Below are positions 13,630 to 33,730 of a stretch of DNA of 38,353 nucleotides, in pieces (the stretch's first letter is position 1; every line of letters begins with the position of its first letter). The stretch comes from a virus. A program made the translations under genes and the position numbers. Under the pieces are notes generated by a model that worked only from the letters and a program-made list of their open reading frames with translations, did no database searches and was not told where the DNA came from. The stretch is taken from the IMG/VR virus record IMGVR_UViG_3300009107_000005, positions 1 through 38,353 of that record; one strand, written 5' to 3'.

Positions 13630-13904
13630 TAAGAAAGTGTGCCAGTTCCTGTGCCTGTAACGGTTGCAGGAGCAGTTATTGGACCTGGAACAGGAGGAGC
13701 AGGCGGAGCAAGTACACTTGCATTAACACCTCCACTAGCAACTCCTGTAACAGTTGTTGAAACAGTTGCTTGAATTAAATAATTATAAATTGCTTGTGCT
13801 AAAGCATTACACAATGTTGTTTGTGATGCGGGAGAAGGATCTGCTTGTGATGCTTTAAATGCATTCTCAATTTCAGTCGCTAATGTCGCTTTATTTAGTG
13901 CCAT
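13629..13904 (-). CDS. Small virion-type protein, tandem paralogue B
   Basis: 91 residues from the ATG at 13904. I chose this start because it overlaps the stop of the preceding gene as TAATG and because the product then aligns end to end with its upstream paralogue. A longer frame starting at 13982 is out-of-family sequence. Architecture: a helical N-terminal half (ATLATEIENAFKASQADPSP, then LAQAIYNYLIQ), a strand TVSTTVTGVASGGV, a proline-rich linker (APPAPPVPGP) and a terminal VTGTGTGTLS. Small proteins of this helix plus TVTxxVxG plus GTGT(L/I)S form are common beside baseplate genes in T4-like marine phages. The function is unknown to me; a central spike-tip or hub accessory role is only a guess from location. 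Confidence 0.75.
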   Translation of the reverse strand: MALNKATLATEIENAFKASQADPSPASQTTLCNALAQAIYNYLIQATVSTTVTGVASGGVNASVLAPPAPPVPGPITAPATVTGTGTGTLS

Positions 13905-14161
13905 TAACTTAATCCTGTCCCTGGTGCTCCTGTTCCAGTTCCTGTGACAGTTGCACCTGCTACTGGTCCAGTTGGAGTACACACTCCACCAACCGCAGTG
14001 CCAGTTACAGTTGTTGTTACAGTTGCAGTTTTGACAAATGTATCAATTGCCGTAGCCATGTCCTGTGCTAATTTTGTTTGTGATGCAGGACTTGGATCTG
14101 ATTGTGATGTTTTCAGGGCGGCTTCAAGTTGGCTCGCTAATGTTGCTGGTACTAATGCCAT
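13904..14161 (-). CDS. Small virion-type protein, tandem paralogue A
   Basis: 85 residues with a strong ribosome binding site (AAGGAG, 6 bases before ATG). N-terminal helices (ATLASQLEAALKTSQSDPSP, then LAQDMATAIDTFVKTA), a strand TVTTTVTGTAVGGV, CTPTGP, and a terminal VTGTGTGAPGTGLS. It shares with the next gene the SQ(S/A)DPSPASQT segment and the GTGTG tail, so the pair is a tandem duplication followed by divergence; the other copy has gained a proline-rich linker and lost the Cys of CTPTGP. It sits between the 1215-residue Ig-like protein and the gp25-gp6 wedge pair. Function not recognised. Confidence 0.75.
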   Translation of the reverse strand: MALVPATLASQLEAALKTSQSDPSPASQTKLAQDMATAIDTFVKTATVTTTVTGTAVGGVCTPTGPVAGATVTGTGTGAPGTGLS

Positions 14162-26947: not shown

Positions 26948-28048
26948 TTAACCCTCTAAATTTGTAGCAAGATTTCTTGATAAAGCAAAATTTTCTTTGA
27001 ATGTGATATCCATTTTGACATGTTGAGGTGCTCCATTTTTAAAAAACACTTGCTGACCTCCTTCTCCATATGACAATTTTAAATTTAATATTGAAGACTG
27101 TCCTATTTGATGAAGAAACTCATTTTTTGTGCCGTTTGTTTTGTAAAATTTAATAGTGTATACATTTGGGTAATTGAAAAATGCAGACTTCAATAAACTT
27201 GTTTGTGCATCAGATGCAGGTGCTGTTTTAATATATTTTGTACCAGCTAAAGGACCTGCTTTAATCGTTTTCAATTGTTCAATTTGATATTTTTCAGTCT
27301 TTTTTTTATTTTCAACATCTGGTTTATGATAATCAGGTAACATGCCTGCTTTCAATTTTGTTATGATTTTTAAAATGTTTTTCGATTCATCAGAATTTCT
27401 TGGATAAAAATCAAATGAGAATGCATGTTGTCTTCTTTCTTTTACACCTGCAAAAACTAATGTAGAATATGGATTTCCAGTCTTTCTCATAGATAATGAT
27501 GCCACTGATGCAGTCTTATCTTTCGATAATAATAGTCCACCAACCGCATCACCAATGTTAAATGCCATTCGTGTACTCATATCTTGTTCAATATATCTAT
27601 TCACATTTGGTGATAATTCAGAACCAACCGTAGTTGCTATTTTTTTATAAAAATCAAATGATTTTGAAATTTGATTTCTATCAGAATGTACAATGTTAGG
27701 TAATTGTGCCTGTAATCGATTTAACACATCTGATGATTCTGAATTTAGTAATGCACCAAAAAATCCAAAGTCTACTTTTTCATGACTTGCATTATATTGT
27801 GTTTTTAAAGAACCTTTTGGTAAATACAAAGCAAACGCATTACGTGACTCATATGGTGCAGTAGTTGATATTTGTTCTGAAAAACGAGTTAAGGCATCTC
27901 TGTTTTTTGTATTTGTGTTTTTATATTGGTACTCAGTAATCATCATAAAATGTCCAACTTCATCACTAGCAACATTTTCAGGAAATTTTTCAATTGCAGT
28001 AACTCCTAGACTTCGTTTTATATTATTTAATTTTTCCTGCGGTGACAT
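26948..28048 (-). CDS. 48: Tail tube cap/baseplate protein gp48-like
   Basis: 366 residues (T4 gp48: 364), directly upstream of gp53 as in marine T4-like phages. The second half has the tube-like fold signature HAFSFDFYPRNSDESKNILK, a strand VYTIKFYKTN, then ILNLKLSYGEGG and HVKMDITFKE, which pair up with segments in the preceding gene, so the two are paralogues. gp48 sits on the hub and nucleates the tail tube. A good ribosome binding site (AGGAG) precedes the ATG, which overlaps the upstream stop as TAATG. The family call rests on length, position and tube-type strand pattern; which paralogue is gp48 sensu stricto is not certain. Confidence 0.65.
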   Translation of the reverse strand: MSPQEKLNNIKRSLGVTAIEKFPENVASDEVGHFMMITEYQYKNTNTKNRDALTRFSEQISTTAPYESRNAFALYLPKGSLKTQYNASHEKVDFGFFGALLNSESSDVLNRLQAQLPNIVHSDRNQISKSFDFYKKIATTVGSELSPNVNRYIEQDMSTRMAFNIGDAVGGLLLSKDKTASVASLSMRKTGNPYSTLVFAGVKERRQHAFSFDFYPRNSDESKNILKIITKLKAGMLPDYHKPDVENKKKTEKYQIEQLKTIKAGPLAGTKYIKTAPASDAQTSLLKSAFFNYPNVYTIKFYKTNGTKNEFLHQIGQSSILNLKLSYGEGGQQVFFKNGAPQHVKMDITFKENFALSRNLATNLEG

Positions 28049-29004
28049 TAAAATTTCTCCTGTAAAATTTGATACCTATCATTTTCTTTTCTTACATTAT
28101 CTCTGGTATAAATTTTAGATTCTGTAAATGTCATGTTTATAACTGTACTGACTGGTGATGCATCTTTGTGAAATGCGGGTGCTCCTTCAGTTTCATAATC
28201 AACTGAGAAACTGGTCATGGCGGCATCATTAATGCTTGGTAAATAGCGAGAACCATAGAGTTGTCCATCTTTTACTCCAAAATCACTTCTTTCGGAATCA
28301 CTTCTTGATGTAAAGAAATCTACATAAAACCTTCTTGGTAATGTTTGCAATCCTGTTTGTTGTTTGTACAAAAATTCTCCATCTTCATCATATTGATCTA
28401 TTACCTCGTCTTCGGGCAACATAGAATTTCTAAAAAATTTAATAATTTGTGTAAGATTTTGCGTGTCTGTTGAATTTCTTGGATGACACCTAAAAGTAAA
28501 ATTAAAAGTTTTGAATCCTATACTCTTAAATACACCTGTAATGTATGGATTTACTGCATTATTTGTAGCAGATGTGACAATCTGTCCAGCGACAGAGGCT
28601 TGTCCATCTCCTGTACTGATTCCAGGTATAAATTCTACTGCTTTTTTTGCAACAACTTGTCCAAGTAGTCCTGTATTAAATGATCCGAGACCACTCATAA
28701 TTGATTTTTTTATATTTTCTAAACTGACTTCCGTTGCAATACTTCCCCCAACTCCTACCGCAGTAGCACCTAAAGGTCCTAAATTGGCATCTGTATATTC
28801 CACTTTATAATCATCAACAATATCTAAAGGCATAGGTAATGCAATTGTACCCACCAACGTTTGTTTTCCTCCTTTTTTTATATCTTTGACCAATATATAA
28901 GTGAAGTGCTTTTCTTCGTCAGAACCACCTAATGTTGAGGGAAATGCAAAATCATTTTTTCCCTGACTTTTTAATGCTTGAATTTTTTCTACTGGGTTAG
29001 ACAT
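28048..29004 (-). CDS. Second tail tube cap-like baseplate protein (gp48/gp54 paralogue)
   Basis: 318 residues from the ATG at 29004, chosen because AGGAG lies 7 bases upstream; an in-frame ATG at 29022 lacks one. Residues about 60-160 include a glycine/alanine-rich stretch (GPLGATAVGVGGSIATE, FIPGISTGDGQASVAGQ), followed by the tube-type region FKTFNFTFRCHPRNSTDTQN, IIKFFRNSMLPED, PRRFYVDFF and MTSFSVDYE..STVINMTFTE. The FxFxFxPRNS and II..(x)MLP pattern is shared with the next gene, so an ancient duplication is likely. The length is close to T4 gp54 (320), but the motif pattern is closer to gp48. It is the first gene of the 29-kb baseplate operon. Confidence 0.6.
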   Translation of the reverse strand: MSNPVEKIQALKSQGKNDFAFPSTLGGSDEEKHFTYILVKDIKKGGKQTLVGTIALPMPLDIVDDYKVEYTDANLGPLGATAVGVGGSIATEVSLENIKKSIMSGLGSFNTGLLGQVVAKKAVEFIPGISTGDGQASVAGQIVTSATNNAVNPYITGVFKSIGFKTFNFTFRCHPRNSTDTQNLTQIIKFFRNSMLPEDEVIDQYDEDGEFLYKQQTGLQTLPRRFYVDFFTSRSDSERSDFGVKDGQLYGSRYLPSINDAAMTSFSVDYETEGAPAFHKDASPVSTVINMTFTESKIYTRDNVRKENDRYQILQEKF

Positions 29005-29032
29005 TATTCTCCTGATATACATAATATTTAGT
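29005..29032. promoter_or_regulatory. 28-base divergent intergenic region between the baseplate operon and gp4
   Basis: The two start codons (29004 minus, 29033 plus) are only 28 bases apart. On the minus strand this space holds ACTAAATA (29028-29035 region), matching 6 of 8 positions of the T4-type late box TATAAATA including the TAAATA core, then 14 bases with AGGAG before the ATG. On the plus strand there is neither a Shine-Dalgarno nor a clear late box before gp4, so its promoter probably lies inside the minus-strand gene or the message is leaderless. Assignment of the minus-strand promoter is inference. Confidence 0.35.
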
Positions 29033-30638: not shown

Positions 30639-30650
30639 GTGACACAGGCT
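30639..30650 (+). repeat. Leader arm of a 12-nt inverted repeat flanking gp26
   Basis: GTGACACAGGCT, 5 bases before the AAGGAG of gp26. It is the exact reverse complement of 31399-31410, which begins at the last base of the gp26 stop codon. The arm can extend by a G-U and two A-U pairs on its outer side (30636-30638 with 31411-31413). It is noticeably more GC-rich than its surroundings. Confidence 0.8.
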
Positions 30651-30654
30651 AACA

Positions 30655-30660
30655 AGGAGA
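30655..30660 (+). promoter_or_regulatory. Shine-Dalgarno of gp26
   Basis: AGGAGA (with the preceding A, AAGGAGA) ends 4 bases before the ATG at 30665. It lies just 3' of the long-range complementary arm, so pairing of that arm could affect ribosome loading. Confidence 0.8.
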
Positions 30661-30664
30661 TATT

Positions 30665-31399
30665 ATGGCTTTACCGGTGCTTAATGCACCAACTTATGAA
30701 TTGACTCTTACATCAACCGAAGAAACGATACGTTATCGTCCTTTTTTGGTGAAAGAAGAGAAAATTTTGTTGATGGCATTAGAAAGTGGTGATGATAAAG
30801 AAATGATGAGATCTATGAAACAAATCATTTCAAATTGTGTGGAGAAAGAGATAAACATTGAAAAGTTGCCTCTATTCGATATACAGTATTTGTTTTTAAA
30901 TATAAGAAGTCAATCAGTAGGTGAGACTTCTCAATTAAGATTTAAACATCCTGATGATACAAATTCAAAAGGTAAAACTTGCACACATATCCAAGATGTT
31001 GTAATTAATCTTAAAGAAATAAAACCAGAAGCAGTTGAAGGACATACAAAAAAAATTAATTTAACAAATGATGTTGGTGTGACTATGACCTATCCTGGTT
31101 TTGACATGTATGACAAAATTATTGCACTTCAAGACGAAACTGCTTTAGATATAATATTTGATATTGTATCGAGTAGTATAGAGATGATTTACAAAGGTGA
31201 AGAAGTTTTTTATGCTGAAGATCATACAAAAGAAGAGGTGATAGAATTTTTAAATAGTTTGAGTTCTATTCAATTTAATAAAATAAGAAATTTTTTTCAA
31301 ACTATGCCTTATCTTAGGCACGAATTCGATTATAGTTGTGATAAATGCGGTTGCACAGAACATGTAACATTAGCGGGAATTGAAGATTTTTTCGCATAA
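30665..31399 (+). CDS. 26: Baseplate hub/tail assembly chaperone gp26 family
   Basis: 244 residues (T4 gp26: 208). It carries the family opening LPVLNAPTYELTLTSTEETI followed by RYRPFLVKEEKILLMALES, typical of T4-type baseplate chaperones, then IEKLPLFDIQYLFLNIRSQSVG and the GVTMTYPGF strand. The C-terminus has a small Cys cluster (CDKCGCTEH) that may bind zinc. It is flanked by a tube-fold protein and the tape measure, the position of the lambda gpG-type tail chaperone. Its last codons (GAT TTT TTC GCA TAA) contain a slippery heptamer; a -1 shift would extend it by 63 residues into the next ORF to give about 306 residues. Strong Shine-Dalgarno. Confidence 0.88.
   Translation: MALPVLNAPTYELTLTSTEETIRYRPFLVKEEKILLMALESGDDKEMMRSMKQIISNCVEKEINIEKLPLFDIQYLFLNIRSQSVGETSQLRFKHPDDTNSKGKTCTHIQDVVINLKEIKPEAVEGHTKKINLTNDVGVTMTYPGFDMYDKIIALQDETALDIIFDIVSSSIEMIYKGEEVFYAEDHTKEEVIEFLNSLSSIQFNKIRNFFQTMPYLRHEFDYSCDKCGCTEHVTLAGIEDFFA
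31387..31393 (+). other. Candidate -1 ribosomal frameshift site TTTTTTC
   Basis: Read in the gp26 frame as T TTT TTC, the classic X XXY YYZ arrangement, two codons before the stop. After a -1 slip the codons CGC ATA AGC CTG TGT CAC GAA AAT CTT CAA AAT CAC TAT lead without a stop into the ATG at 31432. The 5-base spacer GCATA separates the heptamer from the long-range complementary arm. Confidence 0.75.
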
Positions 31400-31410
31400 G
31401 CCTGTGTCAC
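31399..31410 (+). repeat. Downstream arm of the 12-nt inverted repeat flanking gp26
   Basis: AGCCTGTGTCAC, exact reverse complement of 30639-30650. It overlaps the last base of the gp26 UAA codon and forms most of the loop of the local 11-bp hairpin at 31380-31422. Confidence 0.8.
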
Positions 31411-31431
31411 GAAAATCTTCAAAATCACTAT

Positions 31432-31584
31432 ATGACAAATTTTAACTTGATGCAACACCACAAATATAGTTTGACTGAATTAGACAATATGATACCATTT
31501 GAAAGAGAAATTTATGTACAATTATTGATACAACATATTAAAGAAGAAAACGAAAGGTTGAGAGACCAACAAAACCAGAGATAA
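31432..31584 (+). CDS. 50-codon tail chaperone extension (T-like), probably expressed as -1 frameshift fusion to gp26
   Basis: A short frame between gp26 and the tape measure. Its product reads KYSLTELDNMIPFEREIYVQ then LLIQHIKEENERLRDQQ, the same kind of short 'aromatic, LxEL, (P)FxRxIYxxLL' peptide seen in the T part of tail chaperones. The ATG at 31432 has no Shine-Dalgarno (AAAATCACTAT precedes it), while the frame is open upstream to the slippery site inside gp26 in the -1 register. I therefore regard the fused product (gp26 residues 1-243 plus 63 more) as the likely form. It ends 1 base before the tape measure ATG. Independent translation by reinitiation after gp26 remains possible. Confidence 0.75.
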   Translation: MTNFNLMQHHKYSLTELDNMIPFEREIYVQLLIQHIKEENERLRDQQNQR

Positions 31585-31585
31585 A

Positions 31586-33730
31586 ATGGCTAGAAAAACA
31601 CTCGGTAAAATGGAGTTCGCAGAATTAATTGACAGTTTGAAAGAACAAAATCAAGGTCAATTAGAGGCTCAACAAGAAACGACAAAAAGCATCAGAAATC
31701 TCACTGCATACTTTCTTAAACAAGATAGAGCAGAAGCAAGAAGAAGTCTTGAAGATCTTGAAGATGCAATGGAAACGAGAAAAGATGCTGAACAAGTTGG
31801 AACATCAAAAGGTAAAGGTATTATAGATGCAGAAAGTGCTTTGAGTGATAAAGGTCTTAATCTAGTAGAGGCTCAACAACAAACAACAAAAAGCATACAA
31901 GATCTTCAAGCATATTTTTTTAAACAAGATAGAACAGAAGCAAGAAGAAGACTTGAAGATAAAATGGAAGAAGAAAAGTTGGCAGTACAAGTTAGTAGAG
32001 ATGGTTCAAAAAAAGAAAAAGGATTCAAAGAAGGAAAAGGAAAAGGTTTACTAGGCGCATTTAGCAACTTTCTTACTACTGGTTTATTGGGAACTGCTGG
32101 TGCAGGACTTTTTAAAACTGCAATGAGTGCTATAAGATTTAAGCCTGGTTTTGGTATGAAACTCGGTAAACTTTTTACAGGTGCTTTAATTTTACCTAGT
32201 CTTTGGGAGTCAATTAGTAAAGGTATTGACGAATATGGAAAAAGTGGTGATCTAAGTGACTCCTTAGCAAAGGCAGCCACAACATTTTTCAAAGACGATC
32301 CTGTAACAAGTGCAGGATTAGGAGCATTAGCAGGTTTTACTTTTGCAGGACCTAAAGGTGCCATAGCAGGGGCAATATTAGGTGGAGCAGTAAGTGCATT
32401 AGTTGCAGGTATTGGTAGAGAAGGTACTGAAAATCTTATAAGCAGTATTGGAGACTTCTTTACAGGACCTGCTGGTATGGGGGCACTTGTTGGAATTTAT
32501 GGTGGTAAAGCATTAATGAAACAGAAAATTGTGAAAGGTAAAGGTTTAAGACTGTTTGGTATGAGAGGTATGAGGGTTGGTTTAGCCGCTTTGATTATTG
32601 GACCTGTATTAGGAGCAATCGAAAAAGGTATGAAACCATCCGGAGATGATGTTGGCATATCGAGTAAAATAAGCAAGTTTTTATTTTCAACAGATCAAGG
32701 TGGAATATCAACTGCTGATGCCGCCTTAACTGGATTAGGTTTGGCGGCACTTGGACCGTTTGGTATACCTGGTATGATTGCAGGTGCAGTTTTAGGACTT
32801 GCATATAAGGCAGTTGACGATGGCATGAGAAGTAAAACTGCTGGTGCAGGTATTATGGATGTGACATCTGATGCAGTAGGTTCTTTTTTTAGAAAACTAG
32901 ATTTAGGTATTGCCGCCTTTTTTGGTGATGATAGAGCAGACGAAATTCTTGAGAATATGGCTCTTAAAGAATCGAGAATGGATTTTGGTGAATCATTATT
33001 GAAAATAGGTCAACACGGAGATAAAGGATCAATAGGTGACCTCTTTCAACAATTCAGAAAAGATAACAAATTATCATATGATTCTTCAAGTGATAAAAGT
33101 GTAGATGAACAAACCCATGAAGCATTTCTAAAATTTTTATCTGGTTCACAAGTAGCAAGAGATAAAGGAATATTAAAAACTGATGCCACAGGCAAATCAA
33201 GTTTAGATCTTGGAAGTTTACAAGGTGCCGATCTACAAGAAACACAAGCATTACTAAAAAGTTTTATAGGTGCATTTGCTAAAGAGCAAGGAGTTGAAGT
33301 AGGTGGAACAGAGACAAGAGGATATGGTAAAACTAGATTTATGTCAGGATTTCAACCTTTGATATCTGGTATAGGCAGAACGGTAAGAAATGAAACAGAA
33401 GCCAAAAAAGAATTGGAAGCAAAAGGTGTTGTAGCAAATGCAAGAGGTGCCCAAGTATATCGTAAACCTACACTTGCTCTTGTAGCAGAAAAACCAGGTA
33501 CCGCAGAATATATTATGAGTGATAGAAATCTTGCAAGATTAGCAGATACTATTGCAACTCAAAGAGAAAATCAAACAATGTCTTCTATGATTCCTATTAT
33601 GATGGGACAAGGTGGTGGAGGAACATCTATGCCAGTTATCAATAACTCATACTCATATCAAAACACGGAAAATACCGTGAGAGAAATGCCTACCACCAGT
33701 TCTCTAAACATGATGACGGCACTGGCATAG
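31586..33730 (+). CDS. Tail length tape measure protein (gp29 analogue)
   Basis: 714 residues (T4 gp29: 590). Helical, charged N-terminus (FAELIDSLKEQNQGQLEAQQ) with an internal repeat, then several glycine/alanine-rich hydrophobic stretches: residues about 152-175 (LLGAFSNFLTTGLLGTAGAG), 241-275 (AGLGALAGFTFAGPKGAIAG and on), 330-345 (GLAALIIGPVLGAI) and 380-410 (LGLAALGPFGIPGMIAGAVL). These resemble the membrane-inserting parts of tape measures. The C-terminus has the familiar ending LALVAEKPGTAEYIMSDRNL followed by a helix, as in many tape measures. It follows the chaperone and its frameshift extension, the normal gene order. It ends 13 bases before the convergent gp32 end, with no terminator hairpin that I can see. 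Confidence 0.78.
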   Translation: MARKTLGKMEFAELIDSLKEQNQGQLEAQQETTKSIRNLTAYFLKQDRAEARRSLEDLEDAMETRKDAEQVGTSKGKGIIDAESALSDKGLNLVEAQQQTTKSIQDLQAYFFKQDRTEARRRLEDKMEEEKLAVQVSRDGSKKEKGFKEGKGKGLLGAFSNFLTTGLLGTAGAGLFKTAMSAIRFKPGFGMKLGKLFTGALILPSLWESISKGIDEYGKSGDLSDSLAKAATTFFKDDPVTSAGLGALAGFTFAGPKGAIAGAILGGAVSALVAGIGREGTENLISSIGDFFTGPAGMGALVGIYGGKALMKQKIVKGKGLRLFGMRGMRVGLAALIIGPVLGAIEKGMKPSGDDVGISSKISKFLFSTDQGGISTADAALTGLGLAALGPFGIPGMIAGAVLGLAYKAVDDGMRSKTAGAGIMDVTSDAVGSFFRKLDLGIAAFFGDDRADEILENMALKESRMDFGESLLKIGQHGDKGSIGDLFQQFRKDNKLSYDSSSDKSVDEQTHEAFLKFLSGSQVARDKGILKTDATGKSSLDLGSLQGADLQETQALLKSFIGAFAKEQGVEVGGTETRGYGKTRFMSGFQPLISGIGRTVRNETEAKKELEAKGVVANARGAQVYRKPTLALVAEKPGTAEYIMSDRNLARLADTIATQRENQTMSSMIPIMMGQGGGGTSMPVINNSYSYQNTENTVREMPTTSSLNMMTALA
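31664..31756 (+). repeat. Tape measure N-terminal repeat, copy 1
   Basis: 93 bases encoding EAQQETTKSIRNLTAYFLKQ and the following DRAEARRSLED. By hand count it matches copy 2 at about 79 of 93 bases, starting 204 bases (68 codons) upstream of it. Confidence 0.8.
31868..31960 (+). repeat. Tape measure N-terminal repeat, copy 2
   Basis: 93 bases encoding EAQQQTTKSIQDLQAYFFKQ and the following DRTEARRRLED, in frame with copy 1. The segment between them is less conserved. Confidence 0.8.

Follow-up and report, generated by a model that had tools for sequence, protein, structure and literature searches.

What is a pair of exactly complementary 12-mers doing on either side of a gp26-like gene, one beside its ribosome binding site (RBS) and the other just past the slippery sequence at its end? 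The pair was noticed in a first-pass annotation of the stretch of viral DNA analyzed here (38,353 bases, hereafter the window), and was taken there for a long-range stimulator of -1 frameshifting that might also bear on initiation.

The gp26 locus

PHROG matches (tail tube cap, baseplate wedge and hub, single-strand DNA binding protein, helicase loader) identify the window as part of a T4-like phage genome. A short + strand operon runs in the order head closure, DNA end protector, tail tube, gp26-like, gp51-like extension in the -1 frame, and a 714-aa ORF (Table 1), for which no Pfam or PHROG matches were found. The extension adds 63 codons past the slip, for a fusion of 306 aa, and the fusion frame is open in all of 17 representative relatives, two of which are cut by the contig end. 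A short ORF with an overlapping -1 ORF, 5' of a tape measure gene recognized from its position, is the arrangement typical of tail chaperones, and a slippery heptamer (T TTT TTC or T TTT TTT) is present at the end of the short ORF in each of the 25 non-redundant loci carrying the arms. By sequence, then, the genes are arranged as for a tail assembly chaperone with a short form and a frameshifted long form. Vladimirov and colleagues are said to have reported frameshifting in other T4-like groups too. Elsewhere in the window, two adjoining genes on the - strand (26948-28048 and 28048-29022) both match phrog_230 (baseplate tail tube cap).

Table 1. Features of the gp26 region, in order along the window.
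Feature	Coordinates	Strand	Basis or remarks
Upstream arm GTGACACAGGCT	30639..30650	+	core 30640-30649 (TGACACAGGC); exact complement of downstream arm
AAGGAG, taken to be the Shine-Dalgarno-like motif of gp26	30654..30659	+	sequence; 3 nt past upstream arm
gp26-like gene, 244 aa, probable short tail assembly chaperone (TAC-N)	30665..31399	+	start codon at 30665; Pfam T4_baseplate PF12322 1.8e-60; phrog_150 1e-65
Slippery heptamer T TTT TTC	31387..31393	+	sequence; relatives retain the T6 run
-1 frame extension, gp51-like, probable TAC-C	31393..31584	+	phrog_634 baseplate hub assembly catalyst 4.5e-27
Spacer GCATAA, 6 nt, heptamer to core	31394..31399	+	contains gp26 stop; equal length in 25 of 25 arm loci
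Downstream arm AGCCTGTGTCAC	31399..31410	+	core 31400-31409 (GCCTGTGTCA); S-L-C-H in -1 frame
714-aa ORF, probable tape measure protein	31586..33730	+	gene order/position

The two arms in the window

Sequence comparison confirmed that the arms are exact reverse complements, as annotated, and that three outer pairs extend the duplex (the wobble U30638-G31411, then U30637-A31412 and U30636-A31413). The upstream arm lies in the gp26 5' UTR, 11 nt beyond the end of the upstream gene. On both strands of the window, the arms are the only sites with at most one mismatch to GTGACACAGGCT, where 0.06 would be expected in shuffles.

The claim that a 12-mer match within about 750 bases is very unlikely by chance did not hold up. 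Counting exact inverted repeats of at least 12 bases with a loop of 100-1000 nt, the window has six, compared with an average of 5.7 in simulated sequence, so length and distance alone are not improbable. The sole unusual feature is composition: two of the repeats have an arm G+C of at least 7, and none did in any of the 40 simulations. The other repeat of this kind (13685-13696 / 13927-13938, CTGGAACAGGAG) is 12 nt long with a loop of about 230 nt. That 12-nt inverted repeats are common here speaks for a chance origin, in which the S-L-C-H peptide constrains the downstream arm and the upstream match is accidental; the evidential weight of the pair comes from relatives and not from the length of the repeat.

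There is also a local 9-bp inverted repeat, 31382-31390 / 31412-31420 (GAAGATTTT / AAAATCTTC), which overlaps the slippery run with its 5' half and encloses the downstream arm in its loop. It was considered as a stimulator and dropped; its 3' half is in codons that vary among the 17 representatives.

Distribution of the arms in relatives

Loci with gp26 were gathered by protein similarity and by searches with each of the two arms separately. This gave at least 266 sequences, including the window: 208 with gp26, 194 of them with both ends, and 152 of these non-redundant; loci cut by a contig end on either side and exact duplicates were left out of the counts. Among the 152 non-redundant loci listed, 25 have both TGACACAGGC upstream and GCCTGTGTCA downstream, 127 have neither, and none has one alone. 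The arms thus behave as the conserved pair they had been proposed to be, wherever both ends of the gene are visible, and the independent variation that the first-pass annotation had named as grounds for giving up the idea is not seen.

Searching from one arm led to the other in both directions. The upstream pattern was found in 41 stretches, 26 with gp26, and the downstream arm is present in all 23 of these with a visible gene end; the downstream pattern was found in 79 stretches, 36 with gp26, with the upstream arm in all 32 that have a visible start. One contig (L090/L140) has both arms, with a downstream piece that was not recognized as gp26 in the downstream-pattern scan, and L094 has the downstream arm but no visible gene start. 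Each of 10 clade records has exactly one forward and one reverse copy of the 10-mer, with no third exact copy, and a reversed control pattern had no copies in them.

In the gp26 tree the 25 arm loci form one group (changes = 1, branch support 63), so a single origin is compatible with the tree without being demonstrated. Their co-occurrence would likewise be compatible with one origin followed by retention, rather than repeated gain. The arm-bearing loci are a group of marine T4-like bacterial viruses. Among the matches listed, gp26 proteins in this clade range down to about 45-50% identity; none of the 60 isolate records listed, of 973, exceeds 45% gp26 identity to the window, and no relative was found in the bacterial and archaeal genomes searched.

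Conservation and codon constraint

Representatives for the comparisons here and below were picked by hand (17, 15, and 12 from the 25 arm loci, and a further 12 from the non-arm loci). All ten positions of the upstream core are identical in 17 of 17, as are the two A's right after it, while the 40 nt 5' of the arm have an identity of 0.32 among seven deep lineages, the same as the 0.32 expected from composition. The upstream arm begins 3-92 nt past the end of the upstream gene and is outside that gene. Four lineages have a long open frame (251-256 codons) over the arm, which in three of the four runs into the gp26 region and does not come from the upstream gene.

In the fusion frame the downstream arm is coding sequence, with the codons AGC CTG TGT invariant in all 17 representatives and the next CAC in nine and CAT in eight. 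Observed identity in the AGC-CTG-TGT window is 1.00, compared with an expected 0.41. Ranked by excess synonymous identity, the top three of the 189 windows in the fusion gene all overlap the arm; the first two also span slippery-site and stop codons, which are under constraint in any case, and the third consists of AGC-CTG-TGT alone. CTG accounts for only 26 of the 529 Leu codons in these representatives, and 17 of the 26 are at the arm site.

As a synonymous control, the S-L-C-H site was sought in any codons, giving at least 64 new stretches, at least 32 with gp26, and at least 29 distinct ones with a visible start; by construction, these do not include loci already fetched by the exact arm. 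In the 29 listed, Ser is AGT in 16 and AGC in 13, Cys is TGT in 17 and TGC in 12, and the Leu position is CTT in 16 and CTC in 10, with CTG, TTG, and TTC once each. Neither the upstream arm nor an exact upstream complement of the locus's own sequence was found in any of the 29. Loci with the same peptide thus vary their codons and lack the arm, whereas the arm clade has one codon for each residue and a fixed non-coding partner, and a chance match seems hardly credible.

Covariation between the arms, proposed in the annotation as a check, was not borne out: the ten core pairs never vary, and in the flanks there is a weak signal at one pair. This pair, U-1, is formed in 16 of 18 distinct sequences, compared with 13.5 in permutations (p 0.024); for all ten flanking pairs together, p was 0.83. 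Since synonymous and G-U intermediates are available, the invariance of the core could reflect a further constraint, such as a trans-acting partner. Full invariance at ten positions, with no covariation in the core, would also fit 10-mers that are sites for a protein (for instance a DNA dyad) or for a host or phage RNA acting in trans, their pairing with each other being incidental. Such sites would not by themselves account for exact mutual complementarity, for an exact, ribosome-scaled distance from the heptamer, or for the predicted folding and the hairpins that relatives have in this place (below), and each 10-mer occurs as a single copy with no third exact copy in the 10 records; this explanation is considered quite improbable.

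Spacing and predicted folding

The downstream core starts exactly 6 nt past the heptamer in all 25 arm loci, with either type of heptamer, so the placement expected of a -1 frameshift stimulator, as annotated for the window, extends to the clade. In the window itself the 12-mer does begin 5 bases past the heptamer, as had been noted, and the part conserved in relatives begins after 6. According to PMC5009743, most 3' stimulators start 6-9 nt past the shift site; a spacing of 6 nt is at the short end of this range and in keeping with stimulators generally. Such spacing has no evident place in a DNA-level explanation, in which inverted repeats on both sides of one gene would serve for inversion or mobility of gp26. 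In every one of the 17 representatives gp26 runs through the downstream arm into the -1 frame, so that inversion would break the fusion, and no inverted form was seen; this possibility was not seriously entertained.

The upstream arm, for its part, is by the RBS in all 25 loci, in agreement with the annotation, ending 6, 11, 12, 15, or 17 nt 5' of the start codon. Three loci (L007, L009, and L014) have no AGGAG-type Shine-Dalgarno sequence before gp26; in these the only AGG is the one within the arm (CAGGC), which ends 6 nt before the ATG.

All 10 core pairs are present in the minimum free energy fold of the mRNA (861-879 nt) from each of 15 representatives, with a mean core pair probability of 0.90-1.00, in a calculation that ignores translation of the loop. 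For the stretch from -20 to +15 relative to the start codon, the predicted cost of opening the RBS goes up by 3.5-12.5 kcal/mol in each of 12 arm loci once the downstream arm is included; the same addition in 12 non-arm loci changes it by -2.2 to 0.7 kcal/mol.

These last results would also fit a helix that mainly controls initiation, with the end of gp26 sequestering its own RBS, either as translational self-repression or as re-initiation coupled to termination, and with the position after the slippery site incidental to the end of the gene. The constant 6-17 nt between upstream arm and start codon, the arrangement in L007, L009, and L014, and the higher opening cost in 12 of 12 all point that way. 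Left unexplained are the exact 6-nt core spacing in 25 of 25 with both heptamers and the local hairpins that occupy the same spot in other lineages; moreover, a short 5' UTR offers few other untranslated places for a partner strand. Control of initiation as the main role is therefore regarded as unlikely.

The post-slippery strand in other T4-like lineages

A signal for a local hairpin past the slippery site (z < -1.5) was found in 38 of the 127 non-arm loci and in none of the 25 arm loci, where mean local z is 0.66 and no locus has significant local structure. About two thirds of the non-arm loci have neither the 5' UTR helix nor a clear local hairpin, so a stimulator is evidently not required everywhere.

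In a group of 11, a six-pair hairpin begins 6 nt past the heptamer, with 97% of cells paired and one double change, C-G to G-C; since 89 of 500 shuffles reach such a change, the covariation in this group is weak taken alone. In a group of 18, a five-pair hairpin has 8 cells changed on both sides (as high in 5 of 500 shuffles) and 76.7% of cells paired (19 of 500 shuffles), a figure that falls when the pairing is slid by one to three columns.

Pairing with the 5' UTR through other sequences was not detected outside the arm clade: in 59 non-arm loci, a locus's own duplex energies are not better than mismatched ones (mean p 0.51), and in all 127 the longest complement follows the mismatched distribution. 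One possible second case of an upstream partner is L030, which has a perfect, G+C-rich 10-nt complement of the post-slippery strand inside gp26, 361 nt upstream of the slippery site.

Strong candidate partners downstream are found in non-arm loci at about +22-27, +49-54, +78, and +102-107, with a few single cases. Comparing own with mismatched pairs of strands in 98 loci, at a minimum of 7 pairs, there were 9 vs 1.4 ending at +65, 9 vs 3.6 at +89, 16 vs 6.6 at +115, and 85 vs 51.0 over all ends. The strand at +104 also encodes a conserved W-E-R motif, and the G-U terms of the stacking energies used are approximate; for these reasons the downstream partners are suggestive only, and coding constraint could contribute to the enrichment 50-110 nt downstream. 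Strong candidate partners are found at about +78 in L213, L221, L222, and L212, at +49 in L040, L204, and L214, and at +52 in L041, L196, and L218, with sequences that differ by lineage. These are perhaps pseudoknot-like stimulators of T4-like tail chaperone frameshifts. Most simply, the strand 6 nt past the slippery site can be read as one strand of a stimulator in several lineages, with the arm clade taking its partner from the 5' UTR.

A proposed mechanism

The arms are probably a clade-specific -1 frameshift stimulator with its partner strand at the gene's own RBS. They would be the strands of a conserved long-range mRNA helix, with 10 invariant pairs and 10-16 in all, which on forming in the cell would turn the gp26 coding sequence into a closed loop of about 740-755 nt. 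For a ribosome on the heptamer, this helix would begin 6 nt ahead, at the mRNA entry tunnel, and would stimulate the -1 shift that yields the gp26-gp51 fusion, the long tail chaperone. The partner strand would be supplied by the 5' UTR, beside or over the gp26 RBS, instead of by a local hairpin or pseudoknot. Because that strand adjoins or covers the RBS, gp26 initiation would be involved as well: the helix should hinder new initiation, and initiating ribosomes would melt the helix. The rate of initiation might thereby be linked to the ratio of short form to fusion, a coupling that is the least certain part of the proposal. Complementarity, conservation of both strands, co-occurrence, spacing, codon constraint, and predicted folding are what the sequences show; a helix in the cell and its effects on frameshifting and initiation are inferred from them. 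Counting against the proposal are the invariant core with its weakly covarying flanks, the confinement of the arms to one clade, and the many relatives with no clear stimulator.

Because the two strands of the helix lie at the RBS and at the shift site, respectively, initiation and frameshifting would compete for it, and a feedback device can be tentatively imagined, at somewhat less than even chances. Frequent initiation would melt the helix and lower the share of fusion; when initiation is rare the helix would form, raising the fusion share and keeping new starts repressed until it is opened by a ribosome that has come to the end of the gene. On such a closed mRNA loop, ribosome traffic would determine the chaperone ratio. 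The same tentative view has T4-like phages keeping the strand 6 nt past the slippery site and relocating its partner, which might be a local hairpin, a strand 50-110 nt downstream, or the 5' UTR. If the stimulator proposal is true, a translated, looped mRNA can keep its two ends together, and the arms offer a simple two-strand system linking initiation and recoding that is open to base swaps. It bears on how the ratio of short to long tail chaperone is set in T4-like phages outside the T4 group.

Comparison with known systems

The window resembles the lambda gpG/gpGT type and the T4-like TACs gp26/gp51 in having a short chaperone and its -1 fusion just before the tape measure gene. Tail chaperone -1 frameshifts are discussed in PMC10885494, citing Vladimirov et al. 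2022 (Virology 566:9). No description of a long-range stimulator in phage tail chaperone genes was found in searches of the open-licence PMC literature.

Distant pairing is also what -1 frameshifting depends on in the barley yellow dwarf virus element, and Barry and Miller are said to have proposed, in 2002, control of ribosome traffic for this type. There, according to PMC10602861, a local stem-loop has its pairing partner close to the 3' end, thousands of bases further downstream. The arms share with it a distant strand conserved as the complement of the post-shift strand. They differ in two ways: this strand is upstream of the shift site, not 3' of it, at a distance of about 750 nt and in the 5' UTR, before the start codon; and a local stem-loop with a pairing loop is absent from all 25 arm loci.

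The HIV anchoring helix is similar in pairing strands from the two sides of the shift site, but its 5' strand is just upstream, while that of gp26 comes before the start codon of the whole gene. In the MS2 coat-replicase system, a distant coding segment pairs near an RBS and translation opens the pairing; there one gene is paired to the RBS of the next, whereas gp26 would have its end, at a frameshift site, paired to its own start. If true, a stimulator with its second strand before the start codon of the same gene would be a new layout.
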